Shown here in pieces: positions 2 to 17,985 of a stretch of DNA of 62,606 bases. Origin of the DNA: an uncultured Opitutaceae bacterium. Its GTDB lineage: Bacteria; Verrucomicrobiota; Verrucomicrobiia; Opitutales; Opitutaceae. Location of the stretch: the NCBI GenBank assembly GCA_903916755.1, contig CAIWXW010000114.1, positions 1 to 62,606 of the forward strand, in the 5' to 3' direction. The position numbers and the translations under genes are program-made. The number at the start of each line of letters is the position of its first letter. Position 1 is the stretch's first letter. The notes beneath the pieces are model-generated. The model saw only the letters and a program-made list of their open reading frames with translations. It did no database searches and was not told the origin of the DNA.

Positions 2-1507
2 CGCGCCGACGACACGGTGGTGATCGTGACCCCGAACAACGAGACCATCCGCCACGAGTACGAGCTGGGCTTCACCCGCTGGTACCAGGCGCGGACCGGA
101 CGGACGGTCGCCATCGACTGGCGGGTCCTCGGCGGAACGAGCGAGATCGGCCGGCTGATCCAGGGCGAATACATCGCGGCCTTCCAGAACTACTGGACGG
201 GAAAGCGCGGGCAGCCCTGGAGCGCCGAGGTGCAGGCCGCCTTCCAGGATGAGCGCCGGGCGGCGGCCGGGTCCCCGGCGGCGCAGGCCGCCCGGGCCGC
301 CTTCCTGGCCTCCGATCTCGGCTGCGGCATCGACGTGTTCTTCGGGGGCGGGACCTTCGCCTTCGACGACCAGGCGGCGCGGGGCAACCTCGTCGACAGC
401 GGCCTGCGGCAGCTGCATCCGGACTGGTTCTCCGACGCGGCCATCCCCGCGGGGTTCGACGGCAACGCCTTTCGGGACCCGGCGGGCCGCTGGTTCGGCT
501 GGGTCATGAGCTCCTATGGGATCATCTTCAATACGGACGCGATCCGGCGACTGGGGTTCGCCCGTCCGCCCGCGCAATGGAGCGATCTGGCCGATCCCCG
601 CTTCCAGGGCGAGATCGCGCTCTGCGATCCGACCAAGAGCGGCTCGATCGCGATGGCCTTCGACGATGTCATCCAGCAGCAGATCCAGCGGCGGCGCGCG
701 GCGGGCGAGGCCGAGGCCAGCGCGGTGCGCGCCGGCTGGAACGACGGCCTCCAGCTGCTCCAGCGGATCGGCGCCAATGCGCGCTACTTCACGGACAACT
801 CCCAAAAACCGCCGATCGACGTGGCGGCCGGCGACTGCGCGGCGGGGATGTGCATCGATTTCTACGGGCGCCAGCAGGAGGAGGCGCTCCGGCGGCGCGG
901 GGCGTCCGGCCGCGTGGAATTTGCCACCCCGCCCGGCGGCACCTCCTATGCCGTCGACCCGATCGGGCTGATGCGGGGCGCCCCGAACGGGGCCGTGGCC
1001 CGCGCCTTCCTGGAATATACGCTCTCCCTCGAGGGCCAGAAGCTGCTCAATTTCAGCCCGGGCACCCCCGGCGGCCCGCGCGACTTCGCCCTGCGGCGGA
1101 TGCCGATCCGCCGCGACTTCTACACCCACGAGGAATGGAAGCCGCTGCGGAGCGATCCCGATGCCGCCCCGTACGCCGGGACCGAACAGCTGGTCTACCA
1201 CCCCGAATGGACCGCCCGCCGGTTCCGAGAGATGGCCTTCATCGTCCGCGTCATGTGCCAGGACACCCATGACGAGCTGGCCGCCGCCTGGCGGGCGGCG
1301 AACGCGGCGCCGGAACCGCGGCGGGCGGCGGCGCTGGCCCGGCTGCAGGACATGTCGGCGGTCAGCTACGAGCGGGCGGGGGGCGCCATCACCGCGGCCC
1401 TGACCTCGCGCGACCCGGTCGACGAGGTGCGGATGGCGCGCGAGCTCGCGGACGATTTCCGGCGGCAGTACGCCGATGCCGCGGCGCTCGCCCGTGGCGG
1501 CGGCTAA
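2..1507 (+). CDS. ABC transporter substrate-binding protein, Fe3+ type (5' end outside window)
   Basis: This is the C-terminal ~500 residues of a periplasmic type-2 solute-binding protein of the kind that feeds Fe3+-type ABC importers. The frame is open to the left edge (reading ADDTVVIVTPNNE), so the signal peptide and true start lie upstream. The opening beta-strand, the NTDAIRRLGF segment, the PAQWSDLADPRFQGEI segment and the late SYAVDPIGLMRGAPN segment fit extracellular solute-binding family 1. The ligand is not provable; iron is the usual one, but 2-aminoethylphosphonate or sugar phosphates are alternatives. Its stop overlaps the stop of the convergent rpe by 3 bp. The only matching permease in the window is about 13 kb away on the other strand, so cognate partners are more likely upstream, outside the window. 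Confidence 0.8.
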   Translation, partial: RADDTVVIVTPNNETIRHEYELGFTRWYQARTGRTVAIDWRVLGGTSEIGRLIQGEYIAAFQNYWTGKRGQPWSAEVQAAFQDERRAAAGSPAAQAARAAFLASDLGCGIDVFFGGGTFAFDDQAARGNLVDSGLRQLHPDWFSDAAIPAGFDGNAFRDPAGRWFGWVMSSYGIIFNTDAIRRLGFARPPAQWSDLADPRFQGEIALCDPTKSGSIAMAFDDVIQQQIQRRRAAGEAEASAVRAGWNDGLQLLQRIGANARYFTDNSQKPPIDVAAGDCAAGMCIDFYGRQQEEALRRRGASGRVEFATPPGGTSYAVDPIGLMRGAPNGAVARAFLEYTLSLEGQKLLNFSPGTPGGPRDFALRRMPIRRDFYTHEEWKPLRSDPDAAPYAGTEQLVYHPEWTARRFREMAFIVRVMCQDTHDELAAAWRAANAAPEPRRAAALARLQDMSAVSYERAGGAITAALTSRDPVDEVRMARELADDFRRQYADAAALARGGG

Positions 1508-6312: not shown

Positions 6313-7362
6313 ATGGTCGCCTCGCCCCTCGCCGCCCTGACGGCCCAGCTCCTCGCCCGCCGCGACCTTGCGCCCGCGGACGTGGCCGCCGCCGCCGCCG
6401 CGCTGGCGGCGGCCGAGGTGCCCGAGGCGCCCAAGGCGGACTTCCTGACGGCCCTGGCGGAGAAGGGCGAGACTGCCACCGAGGTCGCGGCCTTCGCCGC
6501 GGAATTTCGCTCCCGGGCGGTCGACTCCGGGGTCGGCGCCTGGGCGGCCGAGGCGATCGACATCGTCGGCACCGGCGGCGACCACGCCGGCGGCTTCAAT
6601 ATCTCCAGCGTGGTCGTCCTGGTCCTCGCGAGCGCGGGCGTCACCGTCATGAAGCATGGCAACCGCGGCATCACCTCCCGCTGCGGCAGCGCCGACCTCC
6701 TGGCCGGGCTCGGCGTCGACCTCGAGGCTCCGCCGGAAAAGCAGCGCCGGGCGCTGGGGGAACTGGGCTTCGCCTTCTTCTTCGCCCCCTCCTACCATCC
6801 CGCCTTCCGCTCGATCACGCCGGTGCGGAGGGCGCTCGCGGCGCGCGGCCAGCGCACGGTCTTCAACATCCTCGGCCCCCTGACGAATCCGGGCCGGCCG
6901 GGCCGGATCCTGCTGGGCTCCTTCGCCGACGGCTGGGTGCCGCGGCTGGCCGGCGCGCTCGAGGTCCTCGGCACCGAGGCCGGCCTGGTCGCCCACGGCC
7001 GGATCGACGCGACGCGCGGGATCGATGAATTGACGTCCGCCACGGTGAACCGCGTGCGCGGCGTCGGCCGGCTGCGCGACCTCGATGGGGAATGGCGGGC
7101 CGCCGACTTCGGGCTCGCGCCGGCGTCATTCAGCGAGCTGCAGGGCGGCGACCTCGCGGCCAATCTCGCGCTGGTCGAGGCGCTGGTCGGGGGCCGCGGC
7201 CCGGCGGGCCTGGTCGACACGATCGCGCTCAACGCCGCGGTGGCGCTGTGGATCTGCGGGCGGACGGAGACTCCGGCCGAAGGGATCCCGCAGGCGCGCG
7301 AGCTCCTGCTGGGCGGCGCGGTCGCGCGGAAGATCGCCGATGTCCGGGAGTTCTACCGATGA
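6313..7362 (+). CDS. trpD: Anthranilate phosphoribosyltransferase
   Basis: Transfers the phosphoribosyl group of PRPP to anthranilate, the second step of tryptophan synthesis. Family hallmarks are the PRPP-binding GTGGD motif in DIVGTGGDHAGGFNISS, VMKHGNRGITSRCGSADLL, and ILGPLTNPGRP. I chose the ATG at 6313 (349 residues); an ATG at 6277 would add 12 unrelated residues, and neither has a clear ribosome-binding site. Its stop overlaps the start of glmM in an ATGA arrangement, so the two are translationally coupled. No other trp gene is adjacent, so tryptophan genes appear dispersed. Confidence 0.93.
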   Translation: MVASPLAALTAQLLARRDLAPADVAAAAAALAAAEVPEAPKADFLTALAEKGETATEVAAFAAEFRSRAVDSGVGAWAAEAIDIVGTGGDHAGGFNISSVVVLVLASAGVTVMKHGNRGITSRCGSADLLAGLGVDLEAPPEKQRRALGELGFAFFFAPSYHPAFRSITPVRRALAARGQRTVFNILGPLTNPGRPGRILLGSFADGWVPRLAGALEVLGTEAGLVAHGRIDATRGIDELTSATVNRVRGVGRLRDLDGEWRAADFGLAPASFSELQGGDLAANLALVEALVGGRGPAGLVDTIALNAAVALWICGRTETPAEGIPQARELLLGGAVARKIADVREFYR

Positions 7363-8699
7363 GCGCCTCCCGGAAGTATTTTGGCACCGACGGGGTCCGG
7401 GGAGCCTATGGCGGCCCCGTGATCAACGAGGCCTTTGCGCAGCGGATGGGCTTTGCCGCCGCCCGGTGGGCCGGGGGCGAGGGCGCGGTCCTGATCGGCC
7501 GCGACACCCGCGGCTCCGGCCCGGCGCTGGCCGCGGCGCTGGCCCGCGGGCTCGCCGCGGGCGGCCTGCGCCCGACGCTCCTCGGCGTCCTGCCTTCGCC
7601 CGCCGTGTCCTTCGCGGTCCTGGGGGCGAAGGCGGCGCTCGGCGCGGTGATCACCGCCTCGCACAATCCGGCCGAGGAAAACGGGATCAAGTTCTTCGCC
7701 AGCGGCGGCCAGAAGCTCAGCGACGCCGACGAGGCCCGGATCGAGGCGCTCCTGCCGGCGGAGCCGCCCGCGAACGCGCCGGCGGCCCCGGCCGCCGAGG
7801 ACCCGCGGGCGGAGGCCGAATACATCGCGGCCGCCGCCCGCCTGCTGCCGGCCGGCGCCCTCCGGGGCTGGCGGATCGTGGTCGACAGCGCGAACGGCGC
7901 GACCACCACCACCAGCCCGGCGGTCTTCCGCGCCCTCGGCGCCGAGGTCATCGGCCTGGGTGACGCGCCCAACGGCTCCAATATCAACGCCGGGGTCGGC
8001 AGCCAGCATCCTGCGGCGCTGTCGGAACGCGTGCGCGCGGTCGGGGCGCGGCTGGGCGTGGCCCACGACGGCGACGGCGACCGCTGCGTCCTGTGCGACG
8101 AGCATGGCGAGATCCTGGATGGCGACGAGATCCTCGTCATCCTGGCCACCCACGCGCTGGCCCAGGGCACCCTGGCGGCCCGAGCCCTCGTCGTGACCGA
8201 CCAGAGCAATCTCGGCGTCGATGCGGCGGTCCGCGCCGCGGGCGGCCGGGTTTTCCGCACCGCCATCGGCGACCGCTATGTCTTCGAGCGGATGCAGGCG
8301 GAGGGCGCCCGGCTGGGCGGAGAGTCTTCCGGCCACGTCATCTGCTCGGAGATTTCGCCGGGCGGCGACGGCCTCGTCGCGGCGCTCAAGGTGATCGAGG
8401 TGATGCGGGCGACCGGCCGGCCGCTGTCCGCCTTGCGGCGCGGGCTGCGCAAGTTTCCGCAGGGAGTCGATGCGATCGCCGTCCGCGAAAAGCGGCCGCT
8501 GGCCGCGATGCCGGCCCTCGCCACCGCCATCAGCCGGCTGACCGACGAGCTGGGGGAGCGGGGCCGGGTCCTGGTGCGCTACTCGGGCACCGAGCCGAAA
8601 CTGCGCCTCCTGGTCGAGGGTGAGACCGACGCCAGCGTGCAGCGCGGGCTCGCGCAGCTGCGGTCGGCCGTCCAGGCCGATCTCGCGGCGGTCTCCTAG
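7359..8699 (+). CDS. glmM: Phosphoglucosamine mutase
   Basis: Converts glucosamine 6-phosphate to glucosamine 1-phosphate for UDP-GlcNAc, hence peptidoglycan and LPS. Four alpha-D-phosphohexomutase signatures are visible in order: the active-site serine loop ITASHNPAEENGIK, the metal loop DGDGDRC, the sugar-binding GGESSGH, and the phosphate-binding RYSGTEPKLR. The opening KYFGTDGVRG is the classic GlmM start. The ATG at 7359 overlaps the trpD stop and gives 446 residues, the normal length. Its stop overlaps the stop of the convergent TMTC-like gene by 3 bp. Confidence 0.95.
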   Translation: MSASRKYFGTDGVRGAYGGPVINEAFAQRMGFAAARWAGGEGAVLIGRDTRGSGPALAAALARGLAAGGLRPTLLGVLPSPAVSFAVLGAKAALGAVITASHNPAEENGIKFFASGGQKLSDADEARIEALLPAEPPANAPAAPAAEDPRAEAEYIAAAARLLPAGALRGWRIVVDSANGATTTTSPAVFRALGAEVIGLGDAPNGSNINAGVGSQHPAALSERVRAVGARLGVAHDGDGDRCVLCDEHGEILDGDEILVILATHALAQGTLAARALVVTDQSNLGVDAAVRAAGGRVFRTAIGDRYVFERMQAEGARLGGESSGHVICSEISPGGDGLVAALKVIEVMRATGRPLSALRRGLRKFPQGVDAIAVREKRPLAAMPALATAISRLTDELGERGRVLVRYSGTEPKLRLLVEGETDASVQRGLAQLRSAVQADLAAVS

Positions 8700-10858
8700 G
8701 GGGACGCCGGGGGCGGTTCCCGCGACTGGCGCAGCTCCTCGAGCGCCTCGCGTTCGCGGCCGAGCGCGTGCAGGAGGAGCGCGCGGTTGTAATGCGCCTG
8801 CGGATAGGCCGGCCGCAGCCGCAGCGCCCGCGCATAGTGGGCCAGCGCCGCCTCGTCCTGGCCGGTCGCGCGCAGGGCGTTCGCGAGGCTGTTCTCCGCC
8901 TCCGGATAGTCGGGCTGGGCCCGGAGGGCCGCGGTCAGGTGGGGGATCGCCGCCGGCATGTCGCCGCCGGCGGCCAGGAGCTGCGCCAGGTTGAAATGGG
9001 CCGCCGCAAAAGCCGGCGCGAGGCGCAGCGCCTCCTCATAGCGGGCGCGGGCCCCCGCGCGGTCGCCGGCCGTGGCCAGCATGTTGCCCAGGTTGTTCAG
9101 CGCCTCCGGATAGGCGGGGCGGAGCCGCACCGCCTCCTGGATTTCGGCGATGGCCGCGGGGACGCGGCCCGCCGCGCCATAGGCGATGCCCAGATTGTTC
9201 CGCACCTCGGGGGAGCCCGGCGCCAGGGCGCGCGCCCGTTCGCCCTCGGCGATGGCCGCGGCCACCTGCCCGCTCTGGCGGAGGGCGTTGGCCAGGTTGT
9301 TGTGCGCCCGGACGTGGCCCGGGGCGAGGCGGATGGCCTCGCGGTATTCGGCGATCGCCTGCGGCAGGTGCTGGCTGGCGGCGAGCATGACGCCGAGGTT
9401 GTAGTGCGCGTCGGGATAGGCGGGCCGCAGGCGCAGGGCCTCTCCGTATTCCTGGCGCGCCTCCTGGTCGCGATGCAGGGCGCGCAGCGCGTCGCCCAGG
9501 TCGACGTGCGCCTCGGGCGAGTCGGGCTTGAGGGCGAGCGCCCGCTGGAAATAAACCAGCGCATCCTGCGGATGCCCGTCCTCCACCAGGAGCGTGCCGA
9601 GGTTGGTGTCCGCCATCCAGCAGGCCGGATTTCTTTCCAGGGTGGTTCGGTAAAACGTCGCCGCATCGCGGTAGGCGCGGCTCTGCCGCCAGGTCAGCGT
9701 CCCCAGGACCGCCAGGACCAGGGCCGCCGCCGGCGGAGCCGCCCGGCTGCGCCACCGGGCCCAGCCCGCCGCCGCGAGCGCCAGGATTGCCAGGCTGGCG
9801 AGGTACTGGAAATGATCGGCCACGAACGAAAAGATGAAGGGGTAGACGTTGATGAAACCAAGCGCCGGAAAGAGGGTGCCGACGAAGCAGAGGAGCGCGG
9901 CCAGCGGCGCGCGGGTGCGATGCCGCAGCGCCGCGGCCGCCGCCAGGAGGGCGAGGGCGGCCAGCGGGAAGAGGTCCTGCCACAGGACTGCCGGATCCAC
10001 GGTCCAGCGCGGGTAGATGAAAATCAGGTTCGCCGGCCAGACGAGCTTGCCGAGGTAGAACCAGATCGCGCGGCCGGCGACCAGGACGCGCTGGGCGGGG
10101 GTGAAGGCAAACTGCGCTCCCTGGGCCCCGATATAGGCGTGCTCCACCCAGGCCGTGAAAAGACCGCCCGCGAGCGCGAGGACCAGCCAGGGCACGAGCG
10201 GACCGACGTCCCGCCTCCAGCTGAGGCGGCCCCGCTGCCACCAGAAGACCACCAAGAGCGCGGCGGGAAGGGTCGCCGTCACCGACTTGCTCAGCAAGGC
10301 GGCCAGGAAGCAGCCTAGGGCCAGCGCATACGAGCGGCCCCGTCGGTCCTGGTCGAAGCGCAGGTAAGCCAGGGCGGACAACAAGTAGAAGACGGTCGAC
10401 AGCGTGTTCTTTTGCTCCGAGATCCATGCGACCGACTCGACCGTCACCGGATGCAGGGCGAACAGGAAGCCCGCGAACGCCGCCCCCGGGACGGCCAGCC
10501 GCCGCAGCAGGAGGATCAGGAGGCCGGCCGCCGTGGCGTGCAGCAGCACATTGGTGACATGGTAGCCGAACGGAAGGTCGCCCCAGAGGCGGTGCTCGAG
10601 CCAGAAGGCCGAGTGCAGCACCGGGTAATACTGGGCCGTGGCGCCCGGCGTGAACCAGATGCGCGCGAGCCCGGCCGGCGGCCGCAGCTCCGGCCGGGTC
10701 ACATGGAAATCGTCGTCCCAGACGAATCCGCCATGCAGGGCCGGCGCGTAGGCGGCGAAGGTGACCAGGAAAAGCAGGGCGGCGATGATCCAGGCCGGCG
10801 GCGCGCCCGCGGCGCGGGAAGCGAGGGGAGCGACCACGGGTTGGGGCGGCGGATTCAT
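8696..10858 (-). CDS. TMTC-like membrane protein with C-terminal TPRs (third of three)
   Basis: A 720-residue protein starting at the ATG at 10858. The N-terminal ~400 residues contain many hydrophobic helices with GT-C glycosyltransferase-like features: an acidic first external loop (GGFVWDDDFHVTRP), and the segment FALHPVTVESVAWISEQKN. That is the eukaryotic TMTC/DUF1736 pattern; a later YLGKLVWPANLIFIYPRW segment fits too. The C-terminal ~310 residues are about nine TPR repeats (for example AHYNLGVMLAASQHLPQAIA). In animals TMTC proteins are O-mannosyltransferases; a protein-glycosylating role here is inference. The start overlaps the upstream paralogue by 4 bp. This copy is closer to the first paralogue than to the middle one. 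Confidence 0.8.
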   Translation of the reverse strand: MNPPPQPVVAPLASRAAGAPPAWIIAALLFLVTFAAYAPALHGGFVWDDDFHVTRPELRPPAGLARIWFTPGATAQYYPVLHSAFWLEHRLWGDLPFGYHVTNVLLHATAAGLLILLLRRLAVPGAAFAGFLFALHPVTVESVAWISEQKNTLSTVFYLLSALAYLRFDQDRRGRSYALALGCFLAALLSKSVTATLPAALLVVFWWQRGRLSWRRDVGPLVPWLVLALAGGLFTAWVEHAYIGAQGAQFAFTPAQRVLVAGRAIWFYLGKLVWPANLIFIYPRWTVDPAVLWQDLFPLAALALLAAAAALRHRTRAPLAALLCFVGTLFPALGFINVYPFIFSFVADHFQYLASLAILALAAAGWARWRSRAAPPAAALVLAVLGTLTWRQSRAYRDAATFYRTTLERNPACWMADTNLGTLLVEDGHPQDALVYFQRALALKPDSPEAHVDLGDALRALHRDQEARQEYGEALRLRPAYPDAHYNLGVMLAASQHLPQAIAEYREAIRLAPGHVRAHNNLANALRQSGQVAAAIAEGERARALAPGSPEVRNNLGIAYGAAGRVPAAIAEIQEAVRLRPAYPEALNNLGNMLATAGDRAGARARYEEALRLAPAFAAAHFNLAQLLAAGGDMPAAIPHLTAALRAQPDYPEAENSLANALRATGQDEAALAHYARALRLRPAYPQAHYNRALLLHALGREREALEELRQSREPPPASP

Positions 10859-12864
10859 GGCCGCGGGGCCGGCGGACCCGAGGCCAACCGGCGCATCATC
10901 TCGCGGGCAGGGGAGAACGCGGGATCGAGCCGCAGCGCCTCCGCGTACTGGGCCATCGCCTCCGAGAAGCGGCCGGACTGGGCCAGGGCGTTGCCCAGGT
11001 TGAACCGCAGCCGGACATTCGCGGGATGAGCCTCCACCGCGCGCGTGAAATGGACGATCGCCTCGGCCAGCCGGCCGGTCTGGGCCAGCGCGATGCCCAC
11101 GTTGCTCTCCGTCTCGACCGCCCCCGGCTGCAGCTGCGCCGCCCGTTCGAGGTGCGCCAGCGCCTCCGGCAGCCGGCCGGATTGCGCGAGCGCGATGCCG
11201 AGATTGTTTTCCGCGTCGGCCTGCGCGGGGTTCAATTGGAGGGCGCGCTCGAAATGCGGCAGCGCCTCCGCCCCGCGGCCGAGCGCCCGCAGCGCGTTGC
11301 CCCACGCCGTCTCGGCGGCGGCATAGTCCGGCCGCAGGCGGATCGCCTCCGCCAATTGCGCGATCGCCTCCGGGTAGCGCCGCGCGTCCGCGAAGCCGAC
11401 GCCCACGTCATAGTGGGCTCCCGGCGATTCGGGGCTGAGGCGCAGGCCGGCCTGGAAATGGGTCATCGCCTCGTCCCGCCGGCCGAGGCTCCGCAGCACC
11501 GTGCCGAGGTCGAGCTCCGCCTGGGGCAGATCGGGCTTGAGCCGCAACGCCTGCCGCAGGTCGTCCGCCGCCTCCTGCAGCCGGCCCGTGTCCGTCAGCA
11601 GGGCGCCCAGATTGGTGTAGGCGAGCCAGGCGCCGGGGTTCTCGCGCAGGGTGGCGCGGAACAGCGTCTCCCGATCCCGGTAGATCCGGCACTGGCGCCA
11701 GCAGAGGACGCCGAGGAGGGCGACCGCCGCCACCGCGACGCACCCCGGCGGCAGGGGGGCGGACCGGGCCGCCCAGGCGGCCCAGGCCGCCGCGAGGAAG
11801 GCGATGACGCCGATGATCGCCAGGTGCTGGTAGTGATCGGCCACCAGCGAGAACCGCATGAAATATACGTCCGAAAATCCCAGCACCGGAATGAGCATCA
11901 CGCCGAAATAGCCCCAGGCGAAGAGCGCCGGCCGCGCCGGGCGGCCGCCGGCGGCGAGGAGACCCGTGACCGCGAGGGCGCCCAGGAGCGGCAGCCACCA
12001 GAGCCCGCGCTGCGGGCTGATTTCCCATTGGGGGTAGACAAAGGCGAGGTGCGCCGGCCACAGCGCCTTCCCGAGGTAGAACCAGACCGCGGCGCCCGCC
12101 CCGAGCGCCCGCGTCAATAGCCCGGCCTCGCGGATCACTTCGCCGGTCCCGTGCCGCTGGAACCAGACATCCACCGCGGCCAGCGCGATCGCAGCGCCGA
12201 AGAACGGCGCCAGCCGGCGGAGGTCCGCCGCCGTCGGCCGGCGATGCCACGCGATCACGCCGAGCAGGACGAGGGGCCACGGGGCGACCGAGCCCTTGCT
12301 GAGGAGGGCGAGGACGAAGGCCAGCCAGCTGAGCGCGAGCCATTTCCCGGAGCCTGCGGCCGGCCGCGCGCGGGCCGGCTCCGTGCGGAGAAAGGCCAGC
12401 AGCGCGCAGAGCGCGAAGAGCAGGCCGAGCAGGTTCTTTCGCTCGGCGATCCAGGCCACCGATTCCACGTTCACCGGATGGACCGCGAAGAGGGCCGCCG
12501 CCAAATAGGCGCCCGGCACCTGCAGCCGGCGCAGCGCGGCCCAGAGCAGCACCGCCGTCAGGGCGTGCAGGACCAGGTTCGTGGCGTGATAGCCGGCGGC
12601 GCGGTCCCCCCAGAGCCGCCACTCGAGCCAGAAGGAGGTCTCCGTGACCGGCCAGTAATCGGGGGTGCGGGTGCTGAACCAGAACTGCCGCAGCCCGTCG
12701 GGCGCCTGGACAAAGTGATTGCCCGTCAGCGAACTGTCGTCGTCCCAGACAAAGCCGTTGCGCAGGACCGGCGCATAGGCGGCGAAGACCAGCGCCATAA
12801 GCAGGGCCGCCCCCCAGCCCCAGGCGGGCCGGCGCGAGGCGGTAAGCCAGGGAAAGGTCGTCAT
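10855..12864 (-). CDS. TMTC-like membrane protein with C-terminal TPRs (second of three)
   Basis: A 669-residue paralogue of its two neighbours, start ATG at 12864 overlapping the preceding stop by 4 bp (ATGA). The membrane half has the acidic first loop NGFVWDDDSSLTGN, then FAVHPVNVESVAWIAERKNLL and YLGKALWPAHLAFVYPQW, the same GT-C/TMTC landmarks in the same order. The C-terminal third is TPR (for example AENNLGIALAQSGRLPEALA, repeated with small changes). It diverges from the flanking copies in the loop after the first helix and in the charged segment after WIAERKN, suggesting a different acceptor or donor. Function in glycan transfer is inferred from fold and family only. Confidence 0.8.
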   Translation of the reverse strand: MTTFPWLTASRRPAWGWGAALLMALVFAAYAPVLRNGFVWDDDSSLTGNHFVQAPDGLRQFWFSTRTPDYWPVTETSFWLEWRLWGDRAAGYHATNLVLHALTAVLLWAALRRLQVPGAYLAAALFAVHPVNVESVAWIAERKNLLGLLFALCALLAFLRTEPARARPAAGSGKWLALSWLAFVLALLSKGSVAPWPLVLLGVIAWHRRPTAADLRRLAPFFGAAIALAAVDVWFQRHGTGEVIREAGLLTRALGAGAAVWFYLGKALWPAHLAFVYPQWEISPQRGLWWLPLLGALAVTGLLAAGGRPARPALFAWGYFGVMLIPVLGFSDVYFMRFSLVADHYQHLAIIGVIAFLAAAWAAWAARSAPLPPGCVAVAAVALLGVLCWRQCRIYRDRETLFRATLRENPGAWLAYTNLGALLTDTGRLQEAADDLRQALRLKPDLPQAELDLGTVLRSLGRRDEAMTHFQAGLRLSPESPGAHYDVGVGFADARRYPEAIAQLAEAIRLRPDYAAAETAWGNALRALGRGAEALPHFERALQLNPAQADAENNLGIALAQSGRLPEALAHLERAAQLQPGAVETESNVGIALAQTGRLAEAIVHFTRAVEAHPANVRLRFNLGNALAQSGRFSEAMAQYAEALRLDPAFSPAREMMRRLASGPPAPRP

Positions 12865-14834
12865 CGGGCGCCCGGCTGCCCCAGGGCCGACCGCAGTTGC
12901 GGCAGCAGCGACAGGGCCGGGGGGAACCCGGGCTGCAGGCGCAGCGCCGCCTCGCACTGGGCTATGGCCTCCGGGATCCGGCCGGTGTTGGCCAGCGCCA
13001 GCGCCAGGTTCACGCGGGTGTCGACGTCGTCCGGCTTTAATTCGCTGGCGGCCAGGAAGTGGACGATCGCCTCGGCCAGGCGGTTGGTCTGGGCGAGGGC
13101 GAGGGCCAGGTTGTACTGGACCTCCGCGTCCTTGGGCGCGAGCGCGAGCGCGCGCGTCAGGGGACCAATCGCATCCGCGGGCCGTCCGGCCTGCACGAGG
13201 ACCCGCCCCAGGTCCGAATTGATCAGGACCGAATCCGGCTCGATGCGGAGCCCCAGGCGGAATTGCTCGAGGGCCTCGGCCATCTGCCCCTGGGCGATCA
13301 GGGCATGGCCGAGGTCGCCCCGCACCTTCGGCAGCGTGGGATCGAGCCGGATCGCCTCGCGATAGTGCGCGACCGCCTCGGCGGGGTGGCCGGACCAGAA
13401 GAGCACCCGGCCGAGGGCGTAGTGCGCCTTCACGTAGTCCGGTTCGAGCGCCAGGGCCCGGCGGTAGTGCTCCCCGGCGGCCGGCAGCTGGGCCTGCATG
13501 TAGAAGACGTTGCCAAGGTCGTACTCGGCCAGCGCGTTGTTCGGCTTGATGCGCAGGGAGGCCTCGTACTCCTGCCGGGCCTCGGGGATGTGGCCGAGCC
13601 CGAGCAGGGTCACGCCGAGGTTCTGGTGCCCCATCCACGAATCCGGGTTCCGGGCGAGGGTGGTGCGATAGAAGGTGACCATGTCGGAATACATCCGGCT
13701 CTGGCGCCAGCTGAGGACCCCGAGGAGGGCGAGCAGCAGCGCCCCCGCCACCGGCGCGAGCGGGCTGCGCCAGCGCGCCGCCGTCGCGGCGGCCAGGGCG
13801 AAGATCCCCAGGGTCGCCAGATATTGGAAGTGGTCGGCGACGAAGGAAAAGATGAAGGCGAAGATGTTAAAGAAGCCGAGAATCGGAAAGAGGGTGCCGG
13901 CAAAAAAAAGAAAGGCCGCGAGCGGCGCCCGCGAGCGGCGCCGGTACCGCCAGAGGCCCAGCAGCAGCACGATGGCCGCGAGGGGAAAGAGGTAGGGACC
14001 GGCCCGGGCCGGATCCACGTGCCAGCGGGGGTAGATGAAGATCAGGTGGGCGGGCCAGGCGAGTTTCCCCAGGTAGAACCAAAAGGCCCGGCCCGCGACC
14101 AGGAAGCGCTGCGGCCAGCTGAACAGGAAGTCGGACCCCTTGGCCCCGATATAGCTGTGTTCCACCCAGGCCGTGAACAGCCCGTCGGCCGCGCCCAGGA
14201 CAAACCACGGCAGGAAGGGCGCGACGTCCTCCTTCCAGGCCAGCCGGCCGCGCTGCCACCAGCAGGCGATCAGGAGCGCGGCCGGCAGGCTGGCCGTGAC
14301 CGACTTGCTAAGGAGGGCGCAGGCAAAGCCGGCCAGCGCGAGCCCATACCAGGCGGGTTCGCGGTTGCGGGCATAGCGCAGATAGGCCAGCGCGGCGGCG
14401 AGATAGAAGACGGTCGACAGGGTGTTCTTCTGCTCGGAGATCCAGGCCACCGATTCGACGCATACCGGATGAAGGGCGAACAGGAATCCCGCGAAAACCG
14501 CCCCCCGCACCCCCAGGCGCTGCAGCACCGCGATGAACAGGCAGGCGGCCAGCGCGTGCAGGAGCACATTCGTGAGGTGGTAGCCCACCGGCGCGTCGCC
14601 CCAGAGCCGGTGCTCCAGCCAAAAGGCGGAATGGAGCAGGGGATAGTACTGCTCCGTGGCCCCCACCTCGAACCAGATGCGGCGCAGGCCCGCCACGGAC
14701 TGCAGGGCGGGCCGCGTGACGTAGTCGCTGTCGTTCCAGATGAGGCTGCCGCGCACCGCCGGGAAGTAGGCCAGCAGCGTGACGGCGAAGAGGAGCAGCG
14801 CGACGCGCCAGCGATGCGCGAACCAGGCCGTCAT
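12861..14834 (-). CDS. TMTC-like membrane protein with C-terminal TPRs (first of three)
   Basis: A 657-residue protein with about 11-12 predicted membrane helices followed by about eight TPRs. The first external loop reads SLIWNDSDYVTRP, so the WDDD of the paralogues is WNDSD here, still acidic. Other landmarks are HSAFWLEHRLWGD, FALHPVCVESVAWISEQKN and YLGKLAWPAHLIFIYPRW. TPR landmarks include YREAIRLDPTLPKVRGDLG. The ATG at 14834 overlaps the stop of the ABC permease gene by 4 bp, and its own stop overlaps the next paralogue by 4 bp. Such tandem triplication within one transcript suggests a multi-subunit or sequentially acting membrane system. Confidence 0.8.
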   Translation of the reverse strand: MTAWFAHRWRVALLLFAVTLLAYFPAVRGSLIWNDSDYVTRPALQSVAGLRRIWFEVGATEQYYPLLHSAFWLEHRLWGDAPVGYHLTNVLLHALAACLFIAVLQRLGVRGAVFAGFLFALHPVCVESVAWISEQKNTLSTVFYLAAALAYLRYARNREPAWYGLALAGFACALLSKSVTASLPAALLIACWWQRGRLAWKEDVAPFLPWFVLGAADGLFTAWVEHSYIGAKGSDFLFSWPQRFLVAGRAFWFYLGKLAWPAHLIFIYPRWHVDPARAGPYLFPLAAIVLLLGLWRYRRRSRAPLAAFLFFAGTLFPILGFFNIFAFIFSFVADHFQYLATLGIFALAAATAARWRSPLAPVAGALLLALLGVLSWRQSRMYSDMVTFYRTTLARNPDSWMGHQNLGVTLLGLGHIPEARQEYEASLRIKPNNALAEYDLGNVFYMQAQLPAAGEHYRRALALEPDYVKAHYALGRVLFWSGHPAEAVAHYREAIRLDPTLPKVRGDLGHALIAQGQMAEALEQFRLGLRIEPDSVLINSDLGRVLVQAGRPADAIGPLTRALALAPKDAEVQYNLALALAQTNRLAEAIVHFLAASELKPDDVDTRVNLALALANTGRIPEAIAQCEAALRLQPGFPPALSLLPQLRSALGQPGAR

Positions 14835-16525
14835 ACGCGGAAGATCGCGCCCAGCTTTCGCCCCAGCATCAGGCTCAGGCCCACGATCGTGACCCCCAGG
14901 AAGACCATGGCCCAGGTCCCCAGGGCGCTGGCGATGAACTTGCCGTCGCCCAGGACCTGGTAGAGCTCCAGGATCGCCTTGGTGACCGGATAATACGCCT
15001 GCTTTTGCGCGAGCACCAGGGAGTCGCTGACCTCGAGCATCGCGAAGGCGAAGGCGAGCAGGCCGCCCGCGATGACGCTGGCCATGATGAGCGGCAGCGT
15101 GATCCGAAAGACCGACTTGAGCGGCGGGCAGCCGAGGCTCTGTGCCGCCTCCTCGAGGGTTTCGCTGGTCTGCTCGAAGCCGGCGGCGGCCGAACGGACG
15201 ACGTAGGGGAGCCGGCGAATCGCGTAGGCTACGATCAGGAGGACGGTGGGGTTGCGCACGGGATTGAGGAAGGCGAAGAAGCGGCCCTCCTGGGCCATGG
15301 CGAGGTAGCCGAAGGCCAGCACCAGCCCCGGCACGGCCAGCGGCAGCATGACCAGAAAATCGAGCGCCTGGCGCCCGACCGCCCGGCTGCGGACGATCAC
15401 ATAGGCGATCGCAACCCCCAGGAGGACGTCGAGCACCGTCGAGATGCCCGCGTACTTCAGGCTGTTGGCGATGGCGGGCACCGTGAGCTCGTGGCCGAGC
15501 GCCAGGTGGAAGTTATCGAGCGTAAGCGACCGCGGGAGGATGCCGCCGTACCAGTCGCGCGAGCAGGCGACCAGGATCACCCCGAGGTGCGGCAGGAGCG
15601 CGAGGAAGGTGACCGCGGCAAAGAAGGCGGTGCAGAGCAGGGCGCGGGCGCGCGGCAGCCGCCGGGCGCCCCCGGCGCTGGTCGCCTTCGCCATCATGCC
15701 GTAGCCGGTGCGGCCGAAGAGGCCCTTGCCCACGGCGTAGAGCGTGACGGAGCCCACCAGCATCAGCGTGACCAGGGCATAGGGAAACGGATTTCCCCCG
15801 ATGTCCTTGAGCCCATAGTAGATCTGCACGCTGGTGACCTTGGCGTAGTCGAAGACGAGCGGCGTCCCCAGGTCGGTGAAGCTCCAGATGAAGACGATCG
15901 TGCCTCCCGCAAACAGCCCCGGGCGAATGAGCGGGAGGGTCACGCGGCGAAACCGGCGCAGGCCGGTGCAGCCGAGGTTCTCCGCGGCCTCCTCGAGCGC
16001 GGGGTCGAGGTTGGCCAGGGCGGCGACCGCGTTGAGGTAGATGATCGGATAGAGCGAGAGGGCGTCGATCAGCGCGATGCCCCAGAACTGGTTGGCCGCC
16101 AGCCAGTCGAAGCCCCAGCCCGGCGCGCGCAGGTGCAGCGCGATCACCAGCGCGTTGAGGGCCCCGTACTGGCCGAAGATCTGCCGCAGCCCGATCGCGC
16201 CCACGAAGGGCGGCAGGATCAGCGGGATCAGGACCAGCGAGGCGAAGAGCCGCTGGCCCGGGAACCGAAAGCGGTCGGCCAGGAAGGCGAGGGGAAGCGC
16301 CACGGCGAGCGCCAGGCCCGTGGCCGCGCAGGCGAGCAGGAAAGAGTTGAGCAGCGCGTCCCGGTAGGTCGGGTCGCCGAGCAGCACCCCGAGGCAGGCA
16401 AAGCTCACCCGCCCGTCCGCGTCGACGAAGCCGCCCTTCAGGATCTGAAAAATCGGCCAAAGGAAGAACGCGGCAAAGAAGACGGCCGTGAGGCCGACAA
16501 CGAGGCGCGCGAACGGCTTCGACAT
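14831..16525 (-). CDS. ABC transporter permease, Fe3+ type, duplicated
   Basis: A 564-residue inner-membrane permease consisting of two fused permease halves, as in FbpB/SfuB iron importers. Two EAA-type ATPase-coupling loops are visible: EEAAENLGCTGLRRFRRVTL in the first half and EEAAQSLGCPPLKSVFRITL in the second. The ATG at 16525 (MSKPFARLVV) is chosen over an upstream in-frame ATG at 16618 because the extension is Pro-rich and lacks membrane character. It is the first gene of a four-gene leftward run with the three TMTC-like genes, all overlapping by 4 bp. No ATPase or binding protein is adjacent; the Fe3+-type binding protein at the left window edge is the only candidate in view. Confidence 0.88.
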   Translation of the reverse strand: MSKPFARLVVGLTAVFFAAFFLWPIFQILKGGFVDADGRVSFACLGVLLGDPTYRDALLNSFLLACAATGLALAVALPLAFLADRFRFPGQRLFASLVLIPLILPPFVGAIGLRQIFGQYGALNALVIALHLRAPGWGFDWLAANQFWGIALIDALSLYPIIYLNAVAALANLDPALEEAAENLGCTGLRRFRRVTLPLIRPGLFAGGTIVFIWSFTDLGTPLVFDYAKVTSVQIYYGLKDIGGNPFPYALVTLMLVGSVTLYAVGKGLFGRTGYGMMAKATSAGGARRLPRARALLCTAFFAAVTFLALLPHLGVILVACSRDWYGGILPRSLTLDNFHLALGHELTVPAIANSLKYAGISTVLDVLLGVAIAYVIVRSRAVGRQALDFLVMLPLAVPGLVLAFGYLAMAQEGRFFAFLNPVRNPTVLLIVAYAIRRLPYVVRSAAAGFEQTSETLEEAAQSLGCPPLKSVFRITLPLIMASVIAGGLLAFAFAMLEVSDSLVLAQKQAYYPVTKAILELYQVLGDGKFIASALGTWAMVFLGVTIVGLSLMLGRKLGAIFRV

Positions 16526-16656
16526 CGCGGCGAGTGTGCCGGGCGGCGCCAAGGCCGGGCAAGGCGGAACTGGACCGGCCATTTGACTAATGGGAACCGG
16601 CCCGCTCGACTGGGGCATGCCGTCCCGAGTGCAACCGCGTTAGCTGGCCGCGCGCC

Positions 16657-17985
16657 TTGGATCCCACGCCCTCATCCGATCCCAGCCTGCCCGATTCCCA
16701 CCGGACGATCTCCGTGCCGGGAGGGGCGGGCTTCTGGCGGAAGCTGCTGGCCTTCTCGGGCCCCGGCTACCTGGTCGCGGTCGGCTACATGGACCCGGGC
16801 AACTGGGCCACCGACATCGAGGGCGGCTCGCGCTTTGGCTACACCCTGCTCTGCGTCATCCTGCTCTCCAACCTGATGGCGATCCTCCTGCAGGCGCTGA
16901 GCGCGCGGCTCGGAATCGCCACCGGCCGCGACCTCGCGCAGGCCTGCCGCGACCACTATTCGCGGCCGGTCGCGGTCGGGCTCTGGCTCCTGTGCGAGAT
17001 CGCGATCTGCGCCTGCGACCTGGCCGAGGTGATCGGCACGGCCATCGCGCTCAACCTGCTTTTTCACCTGCCGCTCGTCTGGGGCGTGGTGCTGACCGGA
17101 CTGGACGTGCTGGTCGTCCTCTGGCTGGGCCGCCACGGCTTTCGCTGGCTCGAGCGGCTGGTCATCTCGCTGATTCTGCTGATCGGCGTCTGCTTCGGCC
17201 TGGAGATCCTCTTCTCGCATCCGGCGGTCCGCGACATCGTCGGCGGCCTGTGGCCCGATCCGCAGATCATCTACCAGCCGCACATGCTGTATCTGGCGAT
17301 AGGCATCATCGGCGCCACCGTCATGCCCCATAACCTCTATCTGCATTCCTCCATCGTGCAGACGCGGAAGTACGTGCAGGACGCGCCGGGCCGGCGCGAG
17401 GCGATCCGCTTCGCCTCGATCGATTCGTTCACGGCCCTGATGTTCGCCCTCTTTATCAACGGCGCGATCCTCGTCATGGCCGCGGCCACGTTCCATTCGC
17501 ACGGCCGCCACGACGTGGCGGAGATCGCGGATGCGTACAAGCTGCTCTCGCCCATGCTGGGGGTGGGCATGGCGGGCGTCATCTTTGCCGTGGCGCTGCT
17601 CGCCTCCGGCCAGAACTCCACGCTGACCGGCACCCTCGCGGGCCAGATCGTGATGGAGGGCTTCCTCAATCTCCGGCTGCAGCCCTGGCTGCGCCGGCTG
17701 ATCACGCGCGGCCTCGCCATCGTGCCCGCGGCGTTCGTGGCCGGCTACTACGGCCCGCAGGGCACGGCCAAGCTCATCATCCTGAGCCAGGTCGTCCTGA
17801 GCCTGCAGCTGCCCTTCGCGGTGATCCCGCTGGTGCTCTTCACCAACGACCGCCGCAAGATGGGCGAATTCGTCAGCCCCCGCTGGCTCCAGGTCCTGGC
17901 CTGGGCGACCGCGCTCCTCATCCTGATCCTCAACCTCAAGCTGGTGCTCGATTTCTTCGGGCTCACCGGCGCCCCCGCCTCCTAG
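16657..17985 (+). CDS. mntH: Mn2+/divalent metal NRAMP transporter
   Basis: A proton-coupled divalent metal importer of 442 residues and about 11 helices. The two metal-binding helix motifs are intact: [13 protein letters not shown] in TM1 and [11 protein letters not shown] in TM6. The pattern DPGNWATD is that of bacterial MntH. No ATG is available before TM1; the TTG at 16657 is the best start, with a GTG (SVPGGAGF region) as an alternative. It is divergent from the permease operon with a 131-bp gap, and uspA follows 13 bp downstream, so both may be one transcript. No manganese riboswitch or MntR box was recognised upstream. Confidence 0.9.

Follow-up and report, generated by a model that had tools for sequence, protein, structure and literature searches.

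A trio of predicted GT-C/TPR glycosyltransferases behind an ABC-importer permease in an Opitutaceae genome, probably not functionally linked to that importer

In an uncultured Opitutaceae bacterium (assembly GCA_903916755.1), the gene for an ATP-binding cassette (ABC) importer permease is followed on the same strand by three genes for large membrane proteins carrying tetratricopeptide repeats (TPRs), here named T1, T2 and T3. This arrangement, in contig CAIWXW010000114.1 (positions 1 to 62,606 of the forward strand, hereafter the window, meaning this whole stretch of 62,606 nucleotides), raises the question of what the three proteins do and whether they work together with the importer. The analysis presented here indicates that T1-T3 are probably inner-membrane glycosyltransferases of the bacterial GT-C/TPR family, and that their association with the permease probably carries no functional link. 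The array consists of the following genes and junctions:

14831-16525, minus strand: ABC-importer permease, 564 aa, ATG at 16525, two BPD_transp_1 stretches
14831-14834, minus strand: ATGA overlap of the permease stop and the T1 start
12861-14834, minus strand: T1, GT-C/TPR protein of subfamily alpha, 657 aa
12861-12864, minus strand: ATGA overlap of the T1 stop and the T2 start
10855-12864, minus strand: T2, GT-C/TPR protein of subfamily beta, 669 aa
10855-10858, minus strand: ATGA overlap of the T2 stop and the T3 start
8696-10858, minus strand: T3, GT-C/TPR protein of subfamily alpha, 720 aa

The four leftward genes and their 4-bp overlaps lie exactly where a first-pass annotation of this DNA had placed them, and the acidic first external loop, the HPV-x-VESVAWI segment and the C-terminal TPRs which it had noted are indeed common to T1, T2 and T3.

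TPRs were identified in T1, T2 and T3 using Pfam, while PMT_2 (PF13231, cut-off 26.1) was matched above its cut-off by T1 (35.6) and T3 (28.3), T2 not being listed at E<=0.01. The membrane parts of T3 (81-row alignment; pLDDT 95.9, pTM 0.94) and T2 (58-row alignment; pLDDT 91.0, pTM 0.91) were modelled with AlphaFold, and a VIA structure comparison of either model listed 50 matches, all of which are GT-C enzymes (oligosaccharyltransferase (OST), ArnT, PMT, PglB, AftD and others) or GT-C-like GPI transamidase subunits. For T3, these include OST 8age_A (Z 21.3, root-mean-square deviation (rmsd) 5.0, 325 aligned), ArnT 5ezm (Z 18.7, rmsd 4.5, 319 aligned) and Pmt1-Pmt2 6p25_B (Z 18.2, rmsd 4.3, 330 aligned), and for T2, 6ezn_F (Z 20.4, rmsd 4.6, 313 aligned). 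Similarly, Foldseek returned four matches to T3 at E<=0.001, all of them GT-C (best E 6e-4), with unrelated transporters listed at rank 26 and beyond at low probability. T1 was placed in GT-C by its 69% membrane-part identity to T3. The modelling that had been suggested as a check of the GT-C fold came out in its favour for T2 and T3, and a GT-C core with a TPR tail is supported for T1-T3. The fold is that of ArnT, PMT and OST, but identity to T3 in those rows is 8-12%, and to our knowledge these three enzymes lack a TPR tail. Judging from helix order, the TPRs would lie on the external side, as would the ionisable residues that are invariant. In the proposed working, the external loops would accept a sugar from a periplasmic polyprenyl-phosphate carrier, while the C-terminal TPRs, likewise periplasmic, would hold or select the acceptor; catalysis, donor, acceptor and sidedness are all inferred.

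The three proteins had been described as paralogues, which holds for the features they share, but they are not equal. T1 and T3 are 69% identical in their membrane parts and T2 is 42-45% identical to either and falls in another clade; nonsynonymous and synonymous divergence (dN and dS) are 0.25 and 1.01 for T1-T3 and 0.56 and 0.93 for T1-T2, dS being near saturation. A FastTree tree of 171 membrane parts separates 20 sequences, here called gamma (support 1.0), from 151 others, within which T1 and T3 belong to an alpha clade of 122 rows (support 0.991) and T2 to a clade of 11 rows (support 1.0). A smaller IQ-TREE tree without gamma, built from 54 of 67 matches (the 13 under 100 bits were left out) and with bootstrap values that had not settled, agrees on the alpha and T2 clades, contains a third clade of seven rows, which carry the replaced motifs and group near T2 in the FastTree tree, and gives no resolution to T1 and T3 as sisters; in the FastTree tree, T1 stands in a two-row clade (support 0.85). 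The nearest relative of T1 is T3; elsewhere in the searched genomes identity is at most 66% over most of the domain, and one fragment of 145 residues is 67% identical. A plain triplication was rejected, given that T2 lies in a separate supported clade. The gamma-type bacterial proteins (for example that of locus L022) have the same architecture and a homologous membrane part, but all 20 form their own clade; their genes adjoin alpha genes in some loci (L154, L195).

The first-pass annotation had compared T1-T3 with the TMTC O-mannosyltransferases. According to PMC7801869, the motifs of human TMTCs comprise DD in the first external loop (EL1), RxD, KE(T/Q)xxT in EL3, DW in EL4, YRP and ERxxY, the Glu of KE(T/Q)xxT and the Asp of DW acting as metal ligands in models of the human proteins; full-length prokaryotic homologues are also mentioned there. 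Human TMTC1-4 share with T1-T3 the N-terminal GT-C domain, the EL3 Lys and the C-terminal TPRs, and additionally with T2 and T3 the Asp pair, while differing at RxD, which becomes (Q/R)KN, at KE, which becomes K(S/G), at DW, which becomes (I/V)Y, and, in T1, at DD, which becomes ND. These human motifs were mapped onto T1-T3 by motif order and spacing. The HP-x-x-E segment of T1-T3 also has its likeness in human TMTCs.

Residues at these positions were counted in classes alpha, beta and gamma assigned by best BLAST query, which differ from the tree clades (alpha 122 rows, T2 clade 11); the alignments named A2 and A3 hold 78 and 55 of 92 listed relatives, the remainder having been left out by hand. 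The Glu of KE(T/Q)xxT is present in 20/20 gamma sequences and 0/151 of the branch containing T1-T3 (S178 in T1, G191 in T2, S192 in T3). At the DW Asp position, before Tyr268, gamma has Asp or Glu in 17/20, while the branch has no Asp and a single Glu among 151 (I267 in T1, V276 in T2, I281 in T3). The acid of RxD is likewise kept in gamma (20/20, as the R and E of RxE) and in 6 of the 151 others, which mostly have Asn instead, and the Arg of the YRP site occurs in 20/20 gamma and 0/149 others. Residue 334 (T1 numbering) is Glu in all 20 gamma sequences and Asp in all 151 others. The ERxxY Arg position, located by spacing, does not discriminate (His in 20/20 gamma; His in 143 and Arg in 8 of the others), but an Arg one residue beyond it is always present in gamma (EHR, 20/20) and never in the others. 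In the first loop, an Asp pair had been expected of all three proteins; it is present in T2 and T3, whereas T1 has Asn34-Asp35 (the Asn codon being window positions 14733-14735). The first Asp is Asn in 18/128 alpha-class sequences with that column filled, T1 included; the second never changes, being present in 128/128 alpha-class and 21/21 beta-class sequences (149/149 of the branch); gamma keeps the two in 19/20 and 17/20, respectively. Furthermore, Lys177 of EL3 (T1 numbering) is kept in 171/171, E127 and K136 (T1 numbering) with 2 and 1 exceptions among 151, and D49, H100, H107, E141, K150, K191 and D348 of T3 are invariant in the 81 rows of A2.

These counts bear on two alternatives. That T1-T3 are true TMTC orthologues, that is metal-dependent enzymes which O-mannosylate periplasmic proteins in the manner proposed for human TMTC1-4, would agree with the architecture, the Asp pair of T2 and T3, the EL3 Lys, the HP-x-x-E segment and the prokaryotic homologues mentioned in PMC7801869, yet appears improbable: one proposed metal ligand is gone in 151/151 and the other in 150/151 of the branch, against a gamma group that keeps them in 20/20 and 17/20, and DUF1736 (PF08409) was not matched by T1, T2 or T3 at E<=0.01. 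DUF1736 as proof of TMTC identity was dropped, with no match above cut-off; at E<=10, the single match in the own genome (E 0.35) lies on another contig and stays under the cut-off. The TMTC comparison accordingly stands for architecture and some motif positions, and fails at the domain match and the proposed metal ligands. T1-T3 were not filed as TMTC because the motif residues differ so sharply between gamma and their own branch, although they may nonetheless work like TMTC. The second alternative, a non-catalytic GT-C scaffold which binds carrier lipid or protein and whose TPRs help to assemble, for instance, outer-membrane receptors, gains from the loss of the proposed metal ligands and from the Asn in place of the first Asp in T1 and in 18/128 alpha-class sequences in all. 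It is, however, unlikely in view of the fully conserved second Asp and Lys177, the near-complete retention of E127 and K136, and the invariance in A2 of H86, H93 and D334 (T1 numbering), as would be expected of an active site. T1-T3 belong to a variant branch of GT-C/TPR proteins and are probably enzymes.

To return to the importer, the genes flanking the array, and a further gene of the window, are as follows:

7359-8699, plus strand: glmM, the convergent flank
8696-8699: CTAG, where the stops of T3 and the convergent glmM overlap, the distal edge of the putatively inserted trio
16657-17985, plus strand: MntH/Nramp, divergent from the permease
2-1507, plus strand: solute-binding protein (SBP) of family SBP_bac_6, the first gene of the window, running off the contig end

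The permease was matched in 78 of 100 genomes of the family, its own included (77 of 99 others), full-length matches being 63-78% identical and the remaining ones fragments at contig ends. All 13 genomes of the genus (12/12 genus mates) have it, and among these 13 a T1-like gene lies on the permease contig in the own genome only. Its surroundings were inspected in 49 other neighbourhoods (40 chosen by hand from the 77 other genomes with a match, and 9 further genus mates), with genes called by a GC3/open-reading-frame-length heuristic that may miss small genes. A gene of the T1-T3 branch was found in 0/49 (tblastn, E<=1e-8), and 47/49 of the stretches examined contain no TMTC-like gene of any kind; reciprocally, the permease occurs in 0/80 loci of the GT-C/TPR family (loci of 3-18 kb). 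Downstream of the permease, an EamA transporter on the same strand was seen in 34, an MFS gene on the opposite strand in 7 and neither in 8; six contigs (L024, L027, L031, L033, L213, L219) end 1-4 kb downstream, EamA or MFS preceding the end. Within 6 kb upstream, MntH was found in 16/49 and ZnuA in 5/49, and the permease locus therefore tends to be a metal-transport neighbourhood. In three genus mates (G038, G104 and G094; loci L041, L212 and L040), which share the upstream genes C32 and RplU with the window, the stops of permease and glmM are separated by -4, 1 and 204 bp, whereas 6,131 bp lie between them in the window. The 204 bp between the convergent permease and glmM of L040 resemble, by eye, a long GC-rich inverted repeat.

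The trio is a tandem array set between permease and glmM, genes that adjoin in three genus mates, and their closeness there makes it most likely, on sequence comparison, that this lineage acquired the trio, its loss from the other genomes being less likely. It had been asked whether the permease-TMTC order and the triplication are kept among Opitutaceae orthologues, and a glycosylation system linked to an importer had been offered as one idea; among the genomes examined, the permease adjoins genes of the T1-T3 branch in the own genome only, an outcome that had been named beforehand as refuting the idea. That the trio is functionally linked to the importer, whether by modifying or assisting the permease or its SBP or by using the imported solute, is therefore very improbable: the tight ATGA overlap of permease and T1 and a gamma-type gene downstream of the permease in L051 and L022 speak for it, but the neighbourhood counts above do not, and the permease is equally well conserved where the trio is absent. 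Co-conservation of permease and TMTC was likewise rejected, the two gamma cases, from another clade, giving weak support. As far as this comparison shows, the coupling is accidental, a possibility which the first-pass annotation had itself raised and which is the better reading, and shared transcription with the permease would amount to read-through. ATGA overlaps are ordinary here, because trpD and glmM in the window are joined by one too (7359-7362) and the T3 and glmM stops also overlap. A 4-bp overlap was found in 11/40 same-strand neighbouring pairs of TMTC-like genes, 2 of those 11 in the window (two further cases, L154 and L167, were left out of this count, as their downstream reading frame does not stay open past the stop). 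A promoter scan of 8500-17000 revealed no promoter-like site on the minus strand, though such a scan says little for this organism.

The permease matches BPD_transp_1 in two stretches (79.6 bits against a cut-off of 26.4), as a fused permease does, and its best PDB sequence match is 9j4r, 'Iron ABC transporter permease' (E 8e-26). In NCBIfam, permease and SBP alike score best with 2-aminoethylphosphonate models, far below cut-off in both cases (PhnU2 for the permease, 167.8 bits against 593.25), and on these matches iron and 2-aminoethylphosphonate cannot be told apart as its substrate. The 564-aa fused form is shared with FbpB/PhnU2-like ABC permeases, but the PhnU2 score is far below cut-off. 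The FbpA/PhnS2-like SBP of the window, some 13 kb from the permease, is its likely partner. The same SBP is found downstream of the plsX-fabH region in G038, G104 and G094, and an ABC ATPase adjoins the SBP in G038 (read from the sequence) and in L224 (3001-4071); taken together, permease, SBP and ATPase resemble a split importer that does not include the trio. A partner SBP elsewhere in the genome was considered and rejected: two PF13416 matches were found, but in the 2.9 and 4.0 kb inspected around them no neighbour of permease size was recognised, and the SBP at the window edge is preferred.

The GT-C/TPR family extends well beyond this locus. The own genome contains 20 matches to T1 at E<=1e-60 and the 12 genus mates 2-16 each, and the best 80 of more than 568 relatives come from records titled Opitutaceae, other Verrucomicrobia, Bryobacterales, other Acidobacteria, Planctomycetota, Fibrobacteres, Deltaproteobacteria and others. 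As many as six or seven TMTC-like genes occur within 20 kb (L100, L114). Their neighbours vary, except for a TonB-dependent receptor gene as the immediate upstream neighbour in the same orientation, found in 14/68 such slots as compared with 5/788 other slots (Fisher p 9e-13), a count that takes no account of relatedness in a sample mostly of Opitutaceae. Before L141 and L134 were dropped as repeats of counted contigs, the figures were 15/71 and 6/796. The 14 cases are L117, L118, L121, L127, L129, L137, L140, L143, L147, L151, L156 and L164, together with L097 and L100 of the own genome; 11/14 of the receptors measure 1,121-1,262 aa, L097 and L100 being fragments at the contig or locus end, and the gene behind the receptor belongs to the alpha class in 13 cases and to the beta class in L100. 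The label rests on Plug matches above cut-off in L129 and in the own-genome contigs C104, C179 and C98; the match is just below cut-off in L164, and L121 is alike in sequence but without a match. The receptor before the L107 TMTC pair (Plug match, contig C98) was missed by the phmmer queries and stands outside the count. The trio of the window has no TonB-dependent receptor as a neighbour.

Several observations were made in passing. A protein of about 500 aa lies between receptor and GT-C/TPR gene in L095 (own genome) and L150. In L100 (G000:C104), a TonB-dependent receptor is followed by six TMTC-like genes, of which three belong to the T2 clade and three to the seven-row clade of the 54-row tree, with other large proteins (774 and 639 aa) among them. 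A second kind of long protein occurs beside TMTC-like genes (L094 8410-10158, L100 11332-13251, L110 8428-10200); that of L094 carries TPRs close to its end and matches no GT-C family in Pfam. A polyprenyl-phosphate-sugar synthase as a conserved neighbour is not claimed: phmmer placed GT2-like genes at five places in the loci, four of them in a slot beside a TMTC-like gene, in no consistent orientation. Two GtrA-family matches in the own genome are compatible with a lipid-linked donor. A literature search, covering titles and abstract openings in a limited PMC set, found nothing on the GT-C/TPR family in Opitutaceae or on its pairing with TonB-dependent receptors.

The receptors, as upstream neighbours, would also suit the scaffold alternative described above, and they enter a more specific proposal. 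Alpha, beta and their kin may form a branch with a rebuilt active site (the Glu of KE, the Asp of DW and an Arg lost, a Lys-Asn gained in EL2, and Glu changed to Asp in EL5), using another donor or a metal-free chemistry, with many members in Opitutaceae devoted to large TonB-dependent receptors, so that every copy would modify or assemble a surface protein of its own, and with the trio as an orphan array of that kind. We regard this as a tentative and rather unlikely possibility.

Several points weigh against our interpretation of T1-T3 as glycosyltransferases without a link to the importer. Foldseek gives only moderate TM-scores (0.42-0.54 across the four best T3 matches), and the positions of the human TMTC metal ligands are replaced in T1-T3, T1 also lacking the first Asp; since the putative ligands are replaced, loss of catalysis is possible. 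With regard to the permease, the 40 neighbourhoods were picked by hand, and a gamma-type TMTC-like gene does lie downstream in 2/49, directly after permease-EamA in L051 and about 5.4 kb from the permease in L022, both independently of the trio. Given the exact ATGA overlap, permease and T1 might have become coupled recently and in this species alone, and as the arrangement is seen in one genome only, selection on it is not measurable.

The tempting link between importer and glycosylation is thus removed as unsupported. What emerges in its place is a large branch of bacterial TMTC-like GT-C/TPR proteins, expanded in particular lineages, in which the residues proposed as catalytic in human TMTCs are consistently changed. 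The family is an unusual one that has received little study, and the recurrent pairing with TonB-dependent receptors makes the question of its acceptor testable.

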